This document shows, piece by piece, positions 475 to 10,095 of a stretch of 64,000 nucleotides of DNA. The stretch is from Flavobacteriaceae bacterium (GTDB lineage: Bacteria; Bacteroidota; Bacteroidia; Flavobacteriales; Flavobacteriaceae): contig JABHWD010000029.1 of NCBI GenBank assembly GCA_018657955.1, positions 1 through 64,000 of the forward strand, in the 5' to 3' direction. A program made the translations under genes and the position numbers. The notes beneath the pieces are model-generated. The model saw only the letters and a list, made by a program, of their open reading frames with translations. It searched no databases and was not told where the DNA came from. Within the stretch, counting starts at the first letter, position 1, and the number at the start of each line of letters is the position of its first letter.

Positions 475-1326
475 TTATAAATCTATTAATTTAAATTTTA
501 TCCTATTTCCCATGTGTTTTTGAGATAGTTTATTTATTGATTTTTTAGATAATTGAAGTATTCTAGGATATCCTCCACATGTTTGAGAATCTCTCATTAG
601 AATTATTATTTTTCCAGATTTAGTTAGCTGAACAGTTCCTTGCATTACTAATGAAGTAATTATAGGATCAAGTTGATTTTTGAATGACTCCTTTAATTGA
701 TAAGCCATTCTATCATTATTGTTTGAAATTGTAAATGTTTTATTTAATAAAACTTGTTTTTGTTTGGTTGTTAATTTATCAAATTCTGGCCCCTTGAAAA
801 CTTCAATTATATTGTTTTTAAAATGCTCCAAATAATTAACTTTAATTATAGTTCTTTTCGTTATTATATTTTTTAATTTTTTAATCTTCAAATTCTCACC
901 ATTTATGATTTTATTCGATTTAGTAATACTAGAATGCATACTTCTACTATTCATGATTTTACCTGCCAGGAAACCTCCAGAAACACTTAGGTAAGAACGT
1001 AACCCATATTTCAACTTTCCAAATTTCAAAACATCACCTTTATTGATTTGATATACTCGATTTATATCGATAGAATTGTCATTTATTGATGGACTAATAT
1101 CTGCCCCTGTTATACATATTTTAGTTTCCTCCAAGAATTTTAAAATAGGTCCTGTCATAGTTATTTCCATTACAGCATCATTGTCATTGTTACCTAATAA
1201 TTTATTTGACAGAACTGACGAAAGCTGATCCATTGATCCAGATATAGGAACTCCATAATTTTCATATCCAAACCTTCCAAGATCTTGTATTGTAGAATAA
1301 AGTCCTGATTTAATAATTTCAATCAT
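475..1326 (-). CDS. pxpC: 5-oxoprolinase subunit PxpC (KipA/AHS2 family)
   Basis: 283 residues matching the biotin-dependent carboxyltransferase-like AHS2 family. The start carries the family hallmark 'TIQDLGRFGYENYGVPISG' and the end has 'TCGGYPRILQLS'. PxpC works with PxpA and PxpB in ATP-dependent opening of 5-oxoproline (pyroglutamate) to glutamate in the cytoplasm. It is the last gene of a four-gene operon reading leftwards (Nramp-like, pxpA, pxpB, pxpC), and its start overlaps the end of pxpB by 8 nt, implying translational coupling. Urea amidolyase-type carboxyltransferases share the fold, but the adjacent pxpA and pxpB make 5-oxoprolinase the better call. Confidence 0.9.
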   Translation of the reverse strand: MIEIIKSGLYSTIQDLGRFGYENYGVPISGSMDQLSSVLSNKLLGNNDNDAVMEITMTGPILKFLEETKICITGADISPSINDNSIDINRVYQINKGDVLKFGKLKYGLRSYLSVSGGFLAGKIMNSRSMHSSITKSNKIINGENLKIKKLKNIITKRTIIKVNYLEHFKNNIIEVFKGPEFDKLTTKQKQVLLNKTFTISNNNDRMAYQLKESFKNQLDPIITSLVMQGTVQLTKSGKIIILMRDSQTCGGYPRILQLSKKSINKLSQKHMGNRIKFKLIDL

Positions 1327-2056
1327 TAATTTGAGTTTTTACTGGTTTATAAATATTGGATTCAACCTGTATCTTAATCAATTCATGTTCTTTTAATGAT
1401 ATTGGACTAAATTTTACTTTATCTCCAGGTTTAATAAAACATGGAGAGGTCTTATTAATATTAAATAAATTAATTGGTGAGTTTCCAATAATATACCATC
1501 CTCCAGGGCTATTATTTGGGTATATGCCAGTTTGAGACCCTCCAATTCCTACAGCCCCCTTAGGAACATTTAAAACTGGTTTTTCTTTACGTGGATGATG
1601 TATCTTTTTATCTAATCCCCCTAAATATAAAAAACCAGGAAGAAAACCTATATTATAAACTCTATAATCTTTAGAACTATGCAAAGAAACAATCTCTTCT
1701 TTTTTTATAGAAAGGCTTTTTTCTAAATAATTTAAATCATGTCCAAGTTCAATATCATAACAGACAGGTATTTCCCATTTATTAAAATCCTTTTTTTGTG
1801 TTGATCCAATTTTTATATAAATATTTTTTAATTCAGAGATTTTACTTTTAGGATTTATATTTTCTTCATATGTAATTAGTAGAGAATTATAGGAGTTTTT
1901 TAAATAGATATTATTATTGAGATATTTATTCTCAATTTCTGATTTAAATAATAAAATATTTTCTAAAATAGATTCATGAATTATTGAGGGCCATTCAACT
2001 AGAATAGAACTTTCTCCAAATCTTTTATATTTTAAATTATATGATTTTAATTTCAA
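1319..2056 (-). CDS. pxpB: 5-oxoprolinase subunit PxpB (KipI/AHS1 family)
   Basis: 245 residues of the AHS1/KipI family. The C-terminal half has the family signature 'GFLPGFLYLGGLD', then 'PRKEKPVLNVPKGAVGIGG' and 'SPGGWYIIGNSP'. In Bacillus subtilis the homologue KipI was first described as an inhibitor of the sporulation kinase KinA; the general role is as the partner of PxpC in 5-oxoprolinase. The ATG at 2056 overlaps the end of pxpA by 20 nt and the 3' end overlaps pxpC, so the three subunits are tightly coupled. No other in-frame ATG is close, which supports this start. Confidence 0.9.
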   Translation of the reverse strand: MKLKSYNLKYKRFGESSILVEWPSIIHESILENILLFKSEIENKYLNNNIYLKNSYNSLLITYEENINPKSKISELKNIYIKIGSTQKKDFNKWEIPVCYDIELGHDLNYLEKSLSIKKEEIVSLHSSKDYRVYNIGFLPGFLYLGGLDKKIHHPRKEKPVLNVPKGAVGIGGSQTGIYPNNSPGGWYIIGNSPINLFNINKTSPCFIKPGDKVKFSPISLKEHELIKIQVESNIYKPVKTQIND

Positions 2057-2768
2057 TATTATTTAATTTTAAGTGTAACTCTTCTAGCAATTCAATAGCA
2101 TTTGGATTATCACCATGAATACATAAGGTGTCAAACTCAACACTTATTTCTTTTTTATCAACGCTTATAATTTTATTATTAATAATATTATAAACGTGTT
2201 TAAACATTTCGTTAGAATTTTCTATTAATGCATTAGGATTGTCCCTAGAAACCAATGTTAGGTTAGAGTTATAGTTTCTGTCTATAAATAATTCATTACA
2301 TATTTTAACTCCTTCTTCTCTAGCCATTTTAGAAATAAGAGAAGAATAGGGGGTATATAATTTTGTGTTGATCTCTTTTGTTAAATCAATTATAATTCTT
2401 GCAGTTTCTTTATCATTTGATGCAAAATTATAAAGTGCTCCATGAGGTTTTATATGATTTAAATCAACATTTTCTTGAATCAATATAGTTCTTAAAGCTT
2501 GTATTTGATTTTTCAAAGATTTTACTAGCTTGTCCTTACTAATATTCATTATTTTTCTGCCAAAATTTTTCCTATCAGGAAACGATGGATGAGCACCAAT
2601 TTTTAAATTATTCTTTTTAGCTAATCTTACAACTGACAACATTGTCTCTAAATTACCAGCATGTCCTCCACAAGCTATATTACAAGAAGAAATTAATGGA
2701 AAAAGTTGATCTTCATTCCCAATCCCTTCACCGACATCTGCATTTATATCAATTTTAAGATTTTTCAT
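2037..2768 (-). CDS. pxpA: 5-oxoprolinase subunit PxpA (LamB/YcsF family)
   Basis: 243 residues with the LamB/YcsF signature at the start ('INADVGEGIGNE', then 'SCNIACGGHAGN') and the later motifs 'KIGAHPSFPDRKNFGR', 'HIKPHGALYN' and 'LCIHGDNPNA'. This is the subunit thought to catalyse the ring-opening step of 5-oxoproline hydrolysis together with PxpBC. Conserved His and Asp residues of the TIM-barrel-like active site are present. It begins directly after the stop codon of the Nramp-like transporter and overlaps pxpB, so uptake and hydrolysis are probably co-expressed. Confidence 0.92.
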   Translation of the reverse strand: MKNLKIDINADVGEGIGNEDQLFPLISSCNIACGGHAGNLETMLSVVRLAKKNNLKIGAHPSFPDRKNFGRKIMNISKDKLVKSLKNQIQALRTILIQENVDLNHIKPHGALYNFASNDKETARIIIDLTKEINTKLYTPYSSLISKMAREEGVKICNELFIDRNYNSNLTLVSRDNPNALIENSNEMFKHVYNIINNKIISVDKKEISVEFDTLCIHGDNPNAIELLEELHLKLNNIEIKII

Positions 2769-3995
2769 TTATAATAATTCAAAAACTTTTAGAATACTTT
2801 TCAATCCAAGAAAAATAGTAATAACCAGAATTGCTAAACCAATAAAATTTTGCCATTTAGAATTTTTATATTTTCCTAGAATGGAATCTTTATTTACAAT
2901 CCATATTAAAAAACCTGCAATTACAGGCAGTAATATTCCATTAGCCACTTGAGCAAATTTTATTATTTCTATAGATTTGTATCCTGAAGATGAAGATATA
3001 ACTCCAGCGAGTAAAATAAACATCCAAACACTTCTAAACTTTAAACCTTTCATGTTCAATGACCATCCCAAACATCCAGCGGCCACAAAAGATGCAGCTA
3101 GGGGAGCGGTTATTGCACTTGTTATTCCAGCTGAAAATAATCCAACAGCTAAGATGTATTTAGAATACACACCATAAAGTGGTTCAATTCCCTTTGCTAA
3201 ATCAGCAGCATTATTAATGTTTTCAATATTTAATGAAGCACTAGAAATAATTATACACATAGAAACTATTCCTCCAAGTATAATAGAAATTATAGTATCA
3301 TTTCTTGCAAATTTTAAATCACTTTTATTTTTCCATCTTTCTTTAACTAATGAAGCATGAAGAAAAAGATTGTATGGCACTACAGTTGTGCCAATTAATC
3401 CAATAATTATTAAAATACTTCCTTTAGGGAACTTAGGTATAAATAAACCCTTTAATAAATCAATTATATCTGGTTTAGTTATTATAGCAGTTATAATAAA
3501 TGATAAACTCATTATTATTACTAGAAAAATTAATGATCTTTCAAGAATTTTATAATTTCCTGCGTACAATAAAGCAAATGCTATTAATCCTAAAATAATG
3601 CTATAAAAATTAATATTAATATTTAGAATATTTAAGGTTTTTTCTCCAAAGACAGCTTCTAATCCTAATACTCCTCCACTTATATTTCCAGCTTCATAGG
3701 CTGCATTTCCTATTACTATAGAAGACAATATTAGTGTTATTACAACATTTCTAAAATTAGGGTTTTTAATTTCTTCTCGAATAACTTGAGAAAGTCCTTT
3801 ATTAGATATAATTCCAAGACGGGCAGACATCTCTTGAAGAACTATTGTAGCAATTATTGATAAAACTAGAGTCCATAAAAGAGAAAAACCAAAATCAACT
3901 CCAGCTATACTACATAAAGTAACAGTTCCTGGACCAATAAATGCTGCAGCGACTAACGGTCCTGGACCAATATTATTAATCCATTTTTTCACCAA
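2769..3995 (-). CDS. Nramp-family (LeuT-fold) transporter lacking canonical metal ligands
   Basis: 408 residues with about 11 hydrophobic segments and the Nramp family layout. In metal-transporting Nramps the TM1 motif is DPGN and the TM6 motif is MPHN. Here the corresponding stretches are 'FIGPGTVT' (residues 19-26, Gly21 for Asp and Thr24 for Asn) and 'VPYNLFLH' (206-213, Val and Tyr for Met and His). It is the first gene of the pxp operon; B. subtilis also carries an Nramp-like gene (ycsG) beside ycsF. Family membership is clear, but manganese or iron transport is doubtful; import of 5-oxoproline or another small organic substrate is an inference from context. The ATG at 3995 is divergent from the endonuclease gene. 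Confidence 0.85.
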   Translation of the reverse strand: MVKKWINNIGPGPLVAAAFIGPGTVTLCSIAGVDFGFSLLWTLVLSIIATIVLQEMSARLGIISNKGLSQVIREEIKNPNFRNVVITLILSSIVIGNAAYEAGNISGGVLGLEAVFGEKTLNILNININFYSIILGLIAFALLYAGNYKILERSLIFLVIIMSLSFIITAIITKPDIIDLLKGLFIPKFPKGSILIIIGLIGTTVVPYNLFLHASLVKERWKNKSDLKFARNDTIISIILGGIVSMCIIISSASLNIENINNAADLAKGIEPLYGVYSKYILAVGLFSAGITSAITAPLAASFVAAGCLGWSLNMKGLKFRSVWMFILLAGVISSSSGYKSIEIIKFAQVANGILLPVIAGFLIWIVNKDSILGKYKNSKWQNFIGLAILVITIFLGLKSILKVFELL

Positions 3996-5361: not shown

Positions 5362-5402
5362 CTAAACCATAGGGCAATCTTCTTCTTCTTTTAAAATTAT
5401 TA
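5362..5402 (-). repeat. Attachment-like repeat, copy A (outermost)
   Basis: Begins CTAAACCATAG like the others, then diverges (GGGCAATC) and has one extra TTC before TTTTAAAATTATT. Read on the minus strand in the recombinase frame it still gives LKEEEDCPMV and a stop, so its 3-nt length difference is in frame. It is the most diverged copy and the farthest from the recombinase. Confidence 0.85.
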
Positions 5403-5423
5403 TCAAGTGTTTATGATTTATTT

Positions 5424-6674
5424 TCAGATTTTAATCGTTAAAACATCTCCAAATCGTGTAGTATAACAAGGAGATAGTTTCTCTTGTCTGAGCTTCCATT
5501 TTCTTACAAATCCTTGTGCAGCCAAACGAATCTTATCTCTACCCATCAACATATTTATTTTATCTACCGAATACATCAATTTCTTTTGTTTATCTCTATT
5601 TATTGTATCAAACAAACTCATTTGCACCTCATCTTGTGGTGTAGTATTTCCTACTATCACTCCTGCCTTTTTATATACACAATCATCTCTGTAAATATAC
5701 TCAAGTGCTTTGTTTGCCATATTCACTATCTCCATACTATCATTGGTAGGTATTTCAAAATTGAGTGTGATGTATGGGTGGTATTGTTTCATATTAGGTT
5801 TAAAAGGATTTGTTGTGATAAATACACTTATTTTAGAACAGCAACTCTTCTCCTTGCGTAATTTAGTTGCACAAGTATTTGCAAAGGTGCTGACGGCTTC
5901 ACTTAACTTCTTGCAGGACTTCACTTCTTTACCAAAGGAACGAGCCGTACAAATGTTATTTTTACGTTGCGTTGTGAGTTCCAAGTCATAACACTTTTCT
6001 CCTTTGAGTTCTTTTTGTAAACGAACAGCATTTACCGAGAAATTTCTTCTTATCCAACCTTCATCCGTACTTATAAACTCCAATGCAGTACGGATTCCGG
6101 ATTGTTTCAATCGTTTTGCATATTTCCTGCCAACACCCCACAAATCTTCCACAGGAAACACATTTAATGCCCTTTTGATGAGGTCTTCATCATCCAAGAT
6201 AAATATACCTTTCTTGGTGTGTTTCTTAGCGATATGATTTGCCACTTTCGCTAAGGATTTTGTAGATGCTAAACCAATGGAAATAGGAATCCCTGTCCAT
6301 TGTTTTACTTTCTTTATGATGGCTAATGCCCTATCCAAATCTACTAAATCAGAAAAGTCCAAAAAGGCTTCATCAATGGAGTAAACCTCCATAACTTCAA
6401 CTTCCTCCCTTATCACACTCATTACTCTATCAGACATATCTCCATATAAGGCAAAATTTGTAGAGAATACATTGACTTTGTTCTTATCAATTAAGGACTT
6501 AATTTTAAAAGCGGGTTCCCCCATCTTTATCCCTAATGCCTTGGCTTCATTACTCCTTGCAATTACACATCCATCATTATTGGATAGTACTACAATAGGT
6601 TTGTTCCTTAATTTAGGATTAAACGCCCTCTCACAAGAGGCATAGAAGTTATTGCAATCGGCTAATCCTATCAT
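5424..6674 (-). CDS. umuC: Y-family DNA polymerase V catalytic subunit UmuC
   Basis: 416 residues. The N-terminus has the Y-family metal-binding motif 'DCNNFYASCERAF' and the palm has the catalytic pair in 'YSIDEAFLDFSD'. The HhH/thumb region follows, with the little-finger domain and a C-terminal DUF4113-like tail. UmuC performs error-prone translesion synthesis with processed UmuD. It overlaps the end of umuD by 4 nt (ATGA), a coupled operon. The pair sits between repeat copies A and B as the cargo of one unit, and it appears less AT-rich by eye than the surrounding chromosome, consistent with acquisition. Confidence 0.95.
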   Translation of the reverse strand: MIGLADCNNFYASCERAFNPKLRNKPIVVLSNNDGCVIARSNEAKALGIKMGEPAFKIKSLIDKNKVNVFSTNFALYGDMSDRVMSVIREEVEVMEVYSIDEAFLDFSDLVDLDRALAIIKKVKQWTGIPISIGLASTKSLAKVANHIAKKHTKKGIFILDDEDLIKRALNVFPVEDLWGVGRKYAKRLKQSGIRTALEFISTDEGWIRRNFSVNAVRLQKELKGEKCYDLELTTQRKNNICTARSFGKEVKSCKKLSEAVSTFANTCATKLRKEKSCCSKISVFITTNPFKPNMKQYHPYITLNFEIPTNDSMEIVNMANKALEYIYRDDCVYKKAGVIVGNTTPQDEVQMSLFDTINRDKQKKLMYSVDKINMLMGRDKIRLAAQGFVRKWKLRQEKLSPCYTTRFGDVLTIKI

Positions 6675-7108
6675 ACAAAATGATGAATTGAGTGAGCCAC
6701 TACACCAAATACCACAAAGTCCATATCTTTGGTTATCTCAATCGGTTTGTAATTATCGTTCTCTGCATTTAGGAACATTTTGGTTTTGGTCTTTTTGATA
6801 CGCTTTACTGTAAATTCTCCATCCAAGTAAGCCACCACAATACAGTTGTTTCTTACTTCAAGGGATTTATCCACTACCAACAAATCACCACTTACAATAC
6901 CCGCGCCAATCATAGAATCACCTATTACACGAACATAATAGGTTGCTGAAGGATGTTCTACCAAAAGGTCGTTTAAATCCAACTTAGCATCCAAATAATC
7001 GGCAGCAGGAGAAGGAAACCCTGCCGATACTCCATTTTCAAAATAAGGCATCTGTAATGGTTTTCCCACCTCAGCAGTATAGAACTCCAATGCCTTTGTT
7101 TTTTTCAT
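6671..7108 (-). CDS. umuD: UmuD-like S24 family autopeptidase
   Basis: 145 residues of the LexA/UmuD S24 family. The self-cleavage site is Ala29-Gly30 in 'GVSAGFPSP', the catalytic Ser is Ser65 in 'GDSMIGAGI' and the catalytic Lys is Lys102 in 'FTVKRI'. There is no N-terminal DNA-binding domain, which separates it from LexA. After RecA-stimulated cleavage it would activate UmuC for mutagenic bypass. It is first in the umuD-umuC operon; the 75 bp between its start and repeat copy B must contain its promoter, but I see no clear operator there. Confidence 0.95.
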   Translation of the reverse strand: MKKTKALEFYTAEVGKPLQMPYFENGVSAGFPSPAADYLDAKLDLNDLLVEHPSATYYVRVIGDSMIGAGIVSGDLLVVDKSLEVRNNCIVVAYLDGEFTVKRIKKTKTKMFLNAENDNYKPIEITKDMDFVVFGVVAHSIHHFV

Positions 7109-7183
7109 AATTATAAGTTATAAAATGACAATATTCATTAAGTTAAGAAATTATTAATAGACAATAAAACACTCTATAAAATT

Positions 7184-7220
7184 CTAAACCATAGGCATAT
7201 CTTCTTCTTTTAAAATTATT
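7184..7220 (-). repeat. Attachment-like repeat, copy B
   Basis: The 31-bp core is identical to the copy inside the recombinase gene, and is followed by the arm ATTATT. The arm supplies the TAA stop of the small gene reading leftwards (7216-7437). The core read in the recombinase frame gives LKEEDMPMV and a stop. Confidence 0.9.
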
Positions 7221-7437
7221 TTTCACATTCTTCGTGAACTTCTGATATAATAGGTTTTATATGTATATGTTCTTTTGGGATTAAAAAACTCGCACTTAAT
7301 TCAATTATCATTGCAATAAATGCTATTGATGAAGTAATATAAGCTTCTTCATAAACTGCAGTAATAAATTCTACAAAATGAAAAATTGAATGAATTCTTA
7401 GCCCAAATCTAATTATTTTAATATAATATTTTTTCAT
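7216..7437 (-). CDS. Small hydrophobic protein of unknown function (cassette cargo)
   Basis: 73 residues from the ATG at 7437; a TTG at 7458 would add seven residues but is less convincing. The start is basic ('MKKYYIKIIRFGLR'), followed by two likely membrane-spanning stretches around residues 15-35 and 36-52 and a charged tail with His and Glu ('HIHIKPIISEVHEECEK'). No recognised domain. It is the only gene in the 0.35-kb unit between copies B and C, and its stop codon falls inside the arm of copy B. A small integral membrane protein is likely; the role is unknown. Confidence 0.5.
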   Translation of the reverse strand: MKKYYIKIIRFGLRIHSIFHFVEFITAVYEEAYITSSIAFIAMIIELSASFLIPKEHIHIKPIISEVHEECEK

Positions 7438-7531
7438 AAAAACAGTTTCTGGCCACAATAATAAGATTTAATATCTAATAATTTAAGAAAGAAAAACAAA
7501 GATTGTAAACGATAGCGTTTCAGTCCACTTA

Positions 7532-7576
7532 CTAAACCATAGGTATATCTTCTTGTTTTAAAATTATTGTAAATTG
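7532..7576 (-). repeat. Attachment-like repeat, copy C
   Basis: Core with two substitutions relative to the recombinase copy (GGTATATC and CTTCTTG), followed by the longer arm ATTATTGTAAATTG shared with copy D. Read in the recombinase frame it gives LKQEDIPMV and a stop. The next gene starts 5 nt beyond the arm. Confidence 0.9.
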
Positions 7577-7581
7577 ATTGT

Positions 7582-7839
7582 ATGAAAGACATTAACAAAA
7601 AAATGTACTCTACATATGCACTAAACACACACATATTAGTTCAGCTTGGACAAAATATTCGCAAAATTAGAGAGAAGAAAAAAATTAGTATTGAAGATTT
7701 ATGTTACAATTTAGGCACTACAAAGAGAATCCTCTCAACTATAGAAAATGGCAATAAAAAACTTAGTATTATGTACTGTGAAAAAATAGCTTTTTCATTG
7801 GAAGTCCCACTGTGGAAACTTTTGAAATTTGAAGATTAA
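7582..7839 (+). CDS. XRE/Cro-type helix-turn-helix protein (cassette cargo)
   Basis: 85 residues with one helix-turn-helix domain at about residues 20-80: 'LGQNIRKIREKKKISIEDL' for the first helices and 'TTKRILSTIENGNKKLSI' for the turn and recognition region, ending 'VPLWKLLKFED'. It is a small DNA-binding regulator. It starts 5 nt after the arm of repeat copy C, so any promoter must lie in or before the repeat. The next gene begins 6 nt downstream on the same strand, so the two form a pair. Possible roles are autoregulator of the pair or antitoxin-like partner; the sequence does not decide. Confidence 0.8.
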   Translation: MKDINKKMYSTYALNTHILVQLGQNIRKIREKKKISIEDLCYNLGTTKRILSTIENGNKKLSIMYCEKIAFSLEVPLWKLLKFED

Positions 7840-7845
7840 TAAAAA

Positions 7846-8271
7846 ATGAATTTAAAAGTTATTAGATACAAAAACTACGGATGTACTATGTCTTCTATGC
7901 CAGGTAAAGATATTTATGATAATAACTTCTTTTGGTCTTTTTACGAATTAAATAATGGAGAAATTATTGTATTAAATTATGTTGAGAACCTTACAAATAA
8001 CAAAGTAACTTCAAATAGTTATGAGTTTAATTATGCAAAACACGAATTAAAAAGTGGAAAAATTATAAATTATGAATTTGGTAACGCAAAGGCTATTAAT
8101 AAGAAAGAGATGTCTAAAGAGTTTTTTGATTGGTTTGATTCAGAACCGCCAGCAAAAGATATAAAAGAACTTAAGTTTCCGAACAAAAAGGAAAAAAAAT
8201 GTGTTAAAGAGTTCTTTATTAAAAATATATTAAAAACTAAAGAAGTTGCAACTGATGTTATTAATACCTAA
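7846..8271 (+). CDS. Unknown protein paired with the HTH gene (cassette cargo)
   Basis: 141 residues, soluble, rich in Lys, Asn and Glu. No signal peptide, membrane segment or recognised motif. The N-terminal half ('WSFYELNNGEIIVLNYVEN') looks beta-rich and the C-terminal half is basic and probably helical ('KKEKKCVKEFFIKNILK'). It follows the HTH gene by 6 nt, so the two are probably co-transcribed. Its stop codon TAA is the first TAA of repeat copy D, so insertion or loss at that site would preserve or change the protein end. Function unknown. Confidence 0.6.
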   Translation: MNLKVIRYKNYGCTMSSMPGKDIYDNNFFWSFYELNNGEIIVLNYVENLTNNKVTSNSYEFNYAKHELKSGKIINYEFGNAKAINKKEMSKEFFDWFDSEPPAKDIKELKFPNKKEKKCVKEFFIKNILKTKEVATDVINT

Positions 8272-8312
8272 ACCATAGGCATTTCTTCTTCTTTTAAAAT
8301 TATTGTAAATTG
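8268..8312 (-). repeat. Attachment-like repeat, copy D
   Basis: One substitution (GCATTTC) within the 31-bp core, then the arm ATTATTGTAAATTG as in copy C. Read in the recombinase frame it gives LKEEEMPMV and a stop. On the plus strand its first TAA terminates the 141-residue gene. Confidence 0.9.
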
Positions 8313-8331
8313 TAGGTATAAATTAAACATT

Positions 8332-8913
8332 ATGAAAAATATATTAATTACTCTTGCTTTACTTGTTTCTTTTAGTTCTATTGGGCAAACTGCTGGGATT
8401 GATAAGCTGAAAGCTATATGGATTGATGAAATGATTGAATTTGGGGATATATCAATTAAAAATATAGATTGGACAGCCACCTTTGTTCCATATTATACAA
8501 TAAGGGTAAATCCATACAATGGCTTAGCGATACCTTATAAGAAGTTTGAATCAAACCTTTCAATGATTTTGGGTAAATTAGATCTTCAGATGGGGGATTA
8601 TTATACAAAAAAAACTGCTAAAGATGCAAACAATAGAGAGATGACTTTATCTACTAATAGAATTGCAAGAGGAAGATATTGGATTGACTTTGAAGGTGCT
8701 GGATATGCTTCTTATATAAATCTTACTATTACAGATTCAAAAAATAATTTTGTGACTGTAGGAACTATTAGATTTGATAAAAAAGTAGAAGCTTATAAAA
8801 ATTACGATAAGACATATAGCAAATATATTAAGAAAAGAAAAATTGATAAAAGAAGAGCTAAAAGCGGTGAACAAGTACTTTTTGAGGAAATCCTAAAAAG
8901 ATATAACAACTAA
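8332..8913 (+). CDS. Secreted protein of unknown function (cassette cargo)
   Basis: 193 residues with a cleavable signal peptide ('LALLVSFSSIGQ'), so probably periplasmic or exported. The mature part has mixed polar and aromatic strands ('WTATFVPYYTIRVNPYNG', 'RGRYWIDFEGAGYASYINL') and ends in a strongly basic Lys/Arg-rich region. No recognised domain. It lies in the unit between copies D and E, 19 nt after the arm of D. Its TAA stop is the first TAA of copy E, which is at the same time the 3' end of the recombinase gene on the other strand, so the two genes converge and overlap by 4 bp. Confidence 0.65.
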   Translation: MKNILITLALLVSFSSIGQTAGIDKLKAIWIDEMIEFGDISIKNIDWTATFVPYYTIRVNPYNGLAIPYKKFESNLSMILGKLDLQMGDYYTKKTAKDANNREMTLSTNRIARGRYWIDFEGAGYASYINLTITDSKNNFVTVGTIRFDKKVEAYKNYDKTYSKYIKKRKIDKRRAKSGEQVLFEEILKRYNN

Positions 8914-8940
8914 ACCATAGGCATATCTTCTTCTTTTAAA
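8910..8940 (-). repeat. Attachment-like repeat, copy E, inside the recombinase 3' end
   Basis: The 31-bp core is the last nine sense codons (LKEEDMPMV) plus the TAG stop of the recombinase; beyond it the sequence is recombinase coding DNA, not the ATTATT arm found in the other copies. By analogy with integrons this would be the attI-like receiving site. Confidence 0.85.
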
Positions 8941-9953
8941 TCAGCAATCTCCAGACCGCGTAAGTAAGTTAAGCTTACATTTATAGATGAATGTCCCATT
9001 GCTTTCTGCAACTTGGTTAATGAACCAGTTCTTTTAAAGATTTCTATAGCACCAGAGTGTCTAAATGAGTATAGTGTTTGTCCTTGTTCAAGCAGATTAG
9101 ATTGCCTCTTAAAACGACTCCAAAGGGTCTTAAAATAGTCTTGATTTAAAGGTTGAGGTCTTCCAGAAAAGATATTATGATGAGGTTCTCCTTTCACAAG
9201 AACATCCCTAATATAAGAAGGTACAGGAACAATTCTATTTCTACCTGACTTATTCCTATGTCCCGATAAATTAATGTATTTCAGGTCATCAGAAAAGTCA
9301 CCCCAAGTAAGTTCTCTTATCTCACGATGTGGTCTTAAAAGGCATCCATAGGTCATTAGACAGCATAGATATAACTGTTTGTTATATGCTTTAATAGATT
9401 CAAGTATCTCATTGATATTGTCTAAGGGTTTATGAAGCGTTGAGGTAGGTTTCTTCAGTTTTACACTTTGAACTAAATTAGGTTTTAATTCAGTTAATAA
9501 TGGACTTAATGTAGATTTTACAGTTAGTTGCGTCTTTGGACTCCAATTAGGTCTTATAAGAAAGTTTCTAATATCTGATACTTGTAAGTTGTCAAGCATT
9601 AAGTTTCTTCTATTGTATTCAACCTCATAACGTTTCCAAAGAATAACTATCCGTTTTAAATCTTTTATAAAGCGTTCAGAACATCCTTGTGTAATCTTAA
9701 CCTCAACACCTTGAGCAAGTGCTTGAATAACTGTGATAGGTACTTCTTTAACTTCCTTTTTCTTTTGTTTAGGTCTCCAACCTTCTCTAAATTTTAATTC
9801 AAACGCTGCTTTGAGTAATGCAGGGTTATCGATACATCTTAATTTGATTTGAATAGCTTTTCCATTCCAAAAACGAAAACGCCTGTTATTATAATAAACA
9901 TTAATGAATACTTGTTTTTTGTCTTGACCAATTGTTACGTTAAAAGAGTTCAT
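8910..9953 (-). CDS. Tyrosine recombinase/integrase of the cassette island
   Basis: 347 residues. The C-terminal catalytic domain shows Arg207 ('CLLRPHREIRELTW'), Lys235 ('NKSGRNR'), Tyr295-x-x-Arg298 in place of HxxR ('LYSFRHSG'), His321 ('MGHSS') and nucleophile Tyr330 ('VSLTYLRGLE'). The N-terminal part is a basic, core-binding-like region. I see no IntI-specific insertion. The last nine codons, starting about 9 residues after the nucleophile, are the sequence repeated at 8268, 7532, 7184 and 5362. The gene reads away from the tRNA remnant and appears less AT-rich by eye than host genes. Two ACTGTCAGT boxes abut the start codon. Most likely role: site-specific capture or loss of the cargo units. 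Confidence 0.93.
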   Translation of the reverse strand: MNSFNVTIGQDKKQVFINVYYNNRRFRFWNGKAIQIKLRCIDNPALLKAAFELKFREGWRPKQKKKEVKEVPITVIQALAQGVEVKITQGCSERFIKDLKRIVILWKRYEVEYNRRNLMLDNLQVSDIRNFLIRPNWSPKTQLTVKSTLSPLLTELKPNLVQSVKLKKPTSTLHKPLDNINEILESIKAYNKQLYLCCLMTYGCLLRPHREIRELTWGDFSDDLKYINLSGHRNKSGRNRIVPVPSYIRDVLVKGEPHHNIFSGRPQPLNQDYFKTLWSRFKRQSNLLEQGQTLYSFRHSGAIEIFKRTGSLTKLQKAMGHSSINVSLTYLRGLEIADLKEEDMPMV

Positions 9954-10012: not shown

Positions 10013-10078
10013 GCTTGCATTGGTTAGAGCGTCGGATTCATAACCCGGAGGTCCCGAGTTCAAATCTCGGTCTCGCTA
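10013..10078 (+). tRNA. 5'-truncated tRNA-Met (CAU) remnant
   Basis: Canonical parts visible: 3' D-stem GAGC (10027-10030), anticodon stem-loop with loop TTCATAA (10037-10043, anticodon CAT), five-base variable loop (10049-10053), T-arm CCGAG/TTCAAAT/CTCGG (10054-10070), 3' acceptor strand TCTCGCT and discriminator A at 10078; no CCA. The 5' acceptor strand that should pair (GGCGAGA or similar) is absent; the upstream sequence does not pair. A left half of the D-stem (GCTT, 10013-10016) can still pair weakly. This looks like the 3' part of a tRNA left by integration. No intact tRNA occurs elsewhere in the window. Confidence 0.7.
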
Positions 10079-10095
10079 CTATTTTTCTAATAAAA

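Follow-up and report, generated by a model that had tools for sequence, protein, structure and literature searches.

Among bacteria, integrons are regarded as the principal platform for collecting single genes as interchangeable cassettes through a dedicated recombinase. Here we describe an array of gene cassettes behind int, the gene of a tyrosine recombinase (Int), in a 64,000-nt stretch of a Flavobacteriaceae draft genome (GCA_018657955.1, contig JABHWD010000029.1, positions 1 to 64,000; this whole stretch is called the window below). The gene-cassette system to which the array belongs is real and widespread, and it is undescribed as far as our literature search reached; that search, which left most subscription papers and preprints outside, returned no description of such a layout. 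Comparison between genomes brings out its sites and cassettes, their shuffling, insertion polymorphism, solitary insertions, and a tRNA-integrated island with an empty site. On this comparative basis, we consider it quite probable that it represents a convergent, integron-like but non-IntI gene-cassette system.

The 31-bp core CTAAACCATAGGCATATCTTCTTCTTTTAAA was used as the query for the window, in which its direct copies begin at 8910, 8268, 7532 and 7184 (0-2 mismatches), while the fifth and final copy inside the window, at 5362, bears a 3-nt insertion. Start-to-start distances of the five copies are 642, 736, 348 and 1822 bp, and dinucleotide-shuffled windows gave 0 core matches, compared to the five observed. 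The copy at 8910 forms the 3′ end, including the stop codon, of a recombinase open reading frame (ORF) on the minus strand (8910..9953), which encodes the 347-aa Int and matches Phage_integrase (PF00589, E=3e-13). These results agree with a preliminary description of the locus, which had claimed five core copies at these positions, one of them with the insertion, the first as the 3′ end of a recombinase gene, and between them units with the cargo given below. In the host genome (G000), a 1.44-Mb draft in 31 contigs whose relatives mark it as that of a marine flavobacterium, a genome-wide scan with a 24-nt core detected 20 copies across eight contigs, compared to 0 for the control, the reversed pattern. 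Within the host family, 26 of 399 genomes had the site pattern, with 2 matches overall for the control pattern. Relatives of Int were found at no fewer than 180 loci in GTDB species genomes, and the best 80 of 180 such loci were almost all from Bacteroidota, chiefly marine Flavobacteriaceae. In every case inspected, the site coincided with the coding 3′ end of int, and further site copies in the same orientation as int numbered 44 downstream vs 10 upstream, with 4 inverted (476 and 671 kb; P=2e-9). The exact site was absent from IMG/VR, and phage and plasmid records contained only remote integrases of about 24-27% identity; on these two grounds a phage origin was rejected.

In related genomes, the number and order of core-flanked units behind the recombinase 3′ end are variable, the very comparison that the preliminary description had recommended. 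The cassettes B, C, D and F turn up in more than one array, with changed neighbours or order: C and F follow int as C then F in L101 and as F then C in L102, B and C are reversed between L093 and L095, and D is common to L074, L095 and L171. Several array pairs differ by inserts flanked by a 60-80 nt site repeat. One cassette of G005 is missing in its sister species G003, where a single site remains, with the breakpoint between -33 and -8 (site positions are counted in the direction of int, starting from the first base of GAAGATATGCC). Additionally, one cargo unit together with its core half is common to two genera, and the homology begins at -12. A solitary cupin cassette in G000 is located at a native intergenic spot with conserved flanks, where sister species carry other cassettes; the flanking genes are presumably apaG and a DUF5103-type gene. 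This unit has the core half TAAAACAAGAAGATATGCCTATGGTTTAG at its start and the leader half ATACCTACAATTTACAATAATT at its end, and TAATT is shared by both junctions. Comparison therefore supports the earlier suggestion that the recombinase could capture units at its own 3′ end, with Int as the presumed agent.

Homologous recombination could also rearrange such arrays, if the sites of 35-75 bp were mere short repeats at which RecA-type exchange, and not Int, moved or deleted cassettes. The sites are alike enough to pair, L122 and L141 carry a near-identical cassette between breakpoints compatible with flanking homology, and in Polaribacter-type arrays the segment from -48 to +2 is inherited separately from its neighbours on both sides, a pattern expected of frequent exchange or gene conversion. 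However, this explanation, which we regard as unlikely, does not account for a solitary unit at a native site-free spot or for the sharp left edge at -10 to -25, beyond which unrelated DNA follows in 107 of 165 sites, and it explains neither why a recombinase gene should have this repeat as its 3′ end nor the orientation bias. Nor is local conversion dominant, since the -48 to +2 segment in Polaribacter-type arrays resembles its own int barely more than other ints; gene conversion from the resident int was rejected for the same reason.

Cassette 1 of the window contains a gene for a 193-aa protein with a signal peptide (8332..8913, plus strand), whose stop codon lies inside the core, and is led by a conserved leader half-site, ATTATTGTAAATTGTAGGTATAAA (8299..8322, plus strand); a leader of this type was present at 31 of 165 sites. 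Core copy 2 (8268..8298, plus strand, 1 mismatch) borders cassette 2, which has two genes on the plus strand: gene a, matching the HTH_19 domain of Cro-type helix-turn-helix (HTH) regulators (7582..7839), and gene b, for a 141-aa protein of unknown kind (7846..8271), again with its stop codon inside the core. For gene b, a homologous unit occurs in another species (G003:C44, 78%). Cassette 3 lies between core copies 3 (7532..7562, 2 mismatches) and 4 (7184..7214, identical), both on the plus strand and, like copy 2, supported by pattern match and shuffles; its gene for a small membrane protein (7216..7458, minus strand) recurs at G000:C29 (95%), G005:C4 (89%) and G002:C9 (88%). Cassette 4, bounded on the far side by core copy 5 (5362..5395, plus strand, a pattern match with the 3-nt insertion), carries two genes on the minus strand, one for a UmuD-like (LexA/UmuD-type) S24 peptidase (6671..7108; PF00717) and the other for UmuC, a Y-family DNA polymerase (5424..6674; PF00817, PF11799, PF13438). 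A umuDC-type error-prone repair operon (5424-7108) is thus carried as one cassette.

The 101 site-to-site intervals had a median length of 852 bp and a median coding fraction of 0.79, and 62 of them contained a single ORF. Both strands were used, two thirds of the cassette ORFs being oriented towards int, and in 22 ORFs the stop codon was supplied by TTTAG of the site. TAnnTTTG, a Bacteroidetes promoter-like box, preceded 20 of the 75 first ORFs, compared to 4.6 expected. Cargo includes secreted proteins, lipoproteins, small membrane proteins, cupins, CspA and RidA, as well as ScdA/hemerythrin, an FG-GAP protein sorted by the type IX secretion system (T9SS), HTH proteins and umuDC. Hairpin folding gave a minimum free energy of 0 on both strands for the window-type site and was no better than shuffles for the long-type site, and a hairpin attC was rejected accordingly. 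The differences from integrons that had been noted at the outset, namely site position, the lack of a hairpin and cargo on both strands, were thus borne out.

The catalytic residues of Int are conserved among 49 relatives, and the AlphaFold model (mean pLDDT, the predicted local distance difference test, of 86; pTM, the predicted template modelling score, of 0.54) shows a tyrosine-recombinase fold with an N-terminal beta domain, a helical core-binding domain and a catalytic domain. The closest solved folds were those of Tn1549 Int, an integron integrase (IntI) and lambda Int. Int is not an IntI integron integrase: three members of the family scored 18.5, 14.8 and 20.1 bits with the IntI model TIGR02249, below the cutoff of 265. 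DMP, which is encoded by the core, is invariant among the 49 Int proteins, while the tails of relatives diverge past DMP or DMPMV (MVWSTYNNF, MVELVLNLN, NIKTPAKCKGL), and residues 337-347 at the C-terminus are disordered in the model. A second, unrelated tyrosine recombinase (L044, 8990-10225) adjoins a solitary cassette site on G000:C20.

In the mechanism that we propose, Int, as a phage-type tyrosine recombinase, would carry an island into tRNA genes through a tRNA-side attachment site upstream of int, and the 3′ end of int would serve as a second attachment site, for cassettes. A cassette would normally consist of one gene and one site and would bring its own leader or promoter; in the linear form the core half TTAAAAGAAGAAGATATGCCTATGGTTTAG would come first and the leader half last, and in a presumed circular intermediate the two halves would join into an attC-like site. 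Exchange, probably catalysed by Int itself, would take place at about -13 from GAAGATATGCC with an overlap of roughly TAATT. Insertion could occur at the attI-like site, between cassettes, or occasionally at native look-alike spots, and each insertion at attI would swap the last ~10 codons of Int (LKEEDMPMV*) for cassette-borne ones. In the window, these codons lie in the attI-like segment 8910..8942 (minus strand), which may be the gift of the last-inserted cassette.

Breakpoints and site lengths serve to place the crossover. In addition to the breakpoints between G005 and G003 and in the cross-genus unit, L171 has one at about -17, and the sites of genus g5 meet unrelated DNA at -24 to -13. 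Over 165 sites, int-like similarity stops mostly at -10 to -25, with a second group at -35 to -55. We infer from these positions that the crossover falls ~13 bp left of GAAGATATGCC, within int, with TAATT as the approximate overlap. Given this place inside int, a cassette captured at attI would bring with it the final ~10 codons as well as the stop codon. Such rewriting of the tail fits with the variation of Int tails, with the disorder of the tail in the model, and with the codon-like pattern in cassette cores, which is restricted to -18 to +18 and extends no further left; each cassette seems to overwrite the site. The same lengths bear on the notion that the sites are what is left of islands integrated in series, whose int bodies were later deleted so that only 3′ ends persist. 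Tandem islands and truncated int copies do exist (e.g. L109, L111), and a minority of sites retain int sequence to about -55, but random deletion predicts all lengths, whereas only 7 of 165 sites have 70 nt or more of int. To the left of -13, many sites pass into a leader or into unrelated DNA, the units are mostly of a single gene and shuffled in order, and some stop codons are fitted into the site. We consider this origin very improbable, and int remnants were rejected for most sites by the length distribution. The palindrome TTTAACCTACTTAAGAGGTTTAG at the Tyr codon, considered as the recombination core, was not adopted because short-form sites lack it, though it could explain the long-form site.

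Some observations weigh against the mechanism that we propose. The segment from -48 to +2 in Polaribacter-type arrays is not co-inherited with cargo on either side, and it varies among copies of one and the same cassette at both of their ends. One conservative crossover at -13 would not be expected to give this pattern; a pair of exchange points, or additional homologous exchange, would account for it. In the host genome (L041, 4790-4830; G000:C18), a cassette site interrupts a SnoaL-like gene that three sister species have intact; this junction lies right of the core and would call for a breakpoint near +14, which a crossover at -13 leaves unexplained. By inspection, the core lacks any obvious pair of symmetric recombinase arms. 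In genus g5 (G009, G267, G418; L232-L241), which has 6-8 sites per species in arrays such as G009:C20, the full int was not found in three site-bearing genomes; these genomes may be incomplete or the arrays orphaned. As orphan arrays, those of genus g5 without a detected int would be comparable to the clusters of attC sites lacking integron-integrases (CALINs).

Site-bearing genomes without a detected int could also mean that another recombinase, for example the XerCD of the host or a further island integrase, acts on the sites and that the int gene is merely their target, and the tRNA attachment sites do differ among islands while the core stays constant. Against this, the site coincides with the 3′ end of this int across the family, cassettes lie on its 3′ side, and the core encodes the invariant DMP. 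No dif-like symmetry was noticed in the core, and inspection of GAATTAAAAGAAGAAGATATGCCTATGGTTTAG revealed no XerC/XerD-type inverted arms, no XerCD-specific scan having been made. Action by another recombinase therefore seems to us a slim prospect compared with catalysis by Int.

Upstream of int, the window contains a 60-bp 3′ fragment of tRNA-Met (10020..10079, plus strand), the attR of an island, and no whole tRNA gene. The fragment is identical to the tRNA at G000:C19:18583-18642, which is intact on that other contig. In the sister species G004 and G002, the left flank of this C19 tRNA and the right flank, with hisS, are contiguous around a single tRNA and represent empty sites. In relatives (L081, L084, L086, L117, L129 and L132), int is likewise immediately preceded by a tRNA fragment, and an intact tRNA of matching type lies 1-10 kb downstream of it. 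From the empty sites and this recurring tRNA anatomy, we conclude that the recombinase is part of an island integrated at a tRNA gene and that the right end of this island falls within the window. Islands target the tRNA genes for Met, Ala and Asn, with His and Arg as candidates. Chimeric tRNA-Met genes at L079 (16234-16307) and L097 (upstream of int), in which island integration has fused two kinds of tRNA-Met at the anticodon loop, place the tRNA-side crossover in that loop. The preliminary description was right about the array itself, but overlooked its place in such an island, as well as the apparent rewriting of the site by cassettes and the solitary cassettes.

Staphylococcal cassette chromosome (SCC) elements attach at the 3′ end of rlmH by serine recombinases and are large. 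They resemble the present system in that the attachment site is a gene 3′ end, the insert supplies the last codons and accretion is in tandem, but differ in their serine recombinases, in their size and in targeting a host housekeeping gene rather than the recombinase gene. To our knowledge, no second attachment system that stores single-gene cassettes at the int 3′ end has been described for tycheposons or other tRNA-integrated islands. Those islands otherwise share with ours the tRNA-Met and other tRNA targets, a tyrosine recombinase at one end, cargo, and marine hosts with small genomes (PMC10872708), and the tRNA repeats at both ends and the empty site are likewise present here. In Acinetobacter, dif/pdif modules likewise form discrete gene units that have tyrosine-recombinase sites at their borders and are reshuffled from one replicon to another; they depend on host XerCD and 28-bp dif sites of two Xer-binding regions (PMC6449649, PMC13141974), without a dedicated recombinase having its own docking site, whereas the present system has its own recombinase.

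With integrons, the system shares arrays of small, mostly one-gene cassettes with one site each behind a tyrosine-recombinase gene, precise gain, loss and shuffling, CALIN-like orphan arrays, and solitary insertions at genomic look-alike sites; for integrons, insertions at genomic attG sites have been reported (Loot et al. 2024, as cited in PMC11389934). It lacks IntI, the hairpin attC and the attI position of integrons: Int scores 18.5 bits against the cutoff of 265 and has an N-terminal beta domain in its model, the site coincides with the coding 3′ end of int whereas integron attI is non-coding DNA by the 5′ end of intI, and cassettes, with no single-stranded DNA hairpin, often have their own leader and are read on both strands. 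The system falls outside the known families tested and works convergently with integrons. Whether it is an independently evolved platform, in which a lambda-type recombinase works on two unrelated double-strand sites (the tRNA and its own 3′ end), captured cassettes rewrite the tail of the recombinase, and the array is able to alter the specificity of its own enzyme or how active it is, seems to us evenly balanced.

Integrons are the gene-swapping system best known for the spread of antibiotic resistance, and the marine flavobacterial version appears unrelated. If confirmed, it would be a second, non-homologous cassette platform, common among abundant marine flavobacteria with small genomes, which works without the single-strand hairpin trick, and the solution would have evolved more than once. 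It would also give access to a large reservoir of mobile genes, most of them unknown, including those for secreted proteins, membrane peptides, stress enzymes and umuDC, and the site could serve as a gene-stacking tool. It becomes testable whether the end of a recombinase gene can serve that same enzyme as attachment site, and whether cassette capture alters the enzyme.

The island of the window is spread over several contigs, so that its gene content, apart from the tyrosine recombinase, was seen only in part. The genes at 475-3995 were taken to be pxpABC (5-oxoprolinase) and one for an Nramp-type transporter. They are probably island cargo, since they have no synteny in sister species and a 65% paralogous copy is located at G000:C20:335913. 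Between the same tRNA-Met and hisS, a sister species carries a different insert of ~1 kb (L194, G003:C17, 8237-9304).

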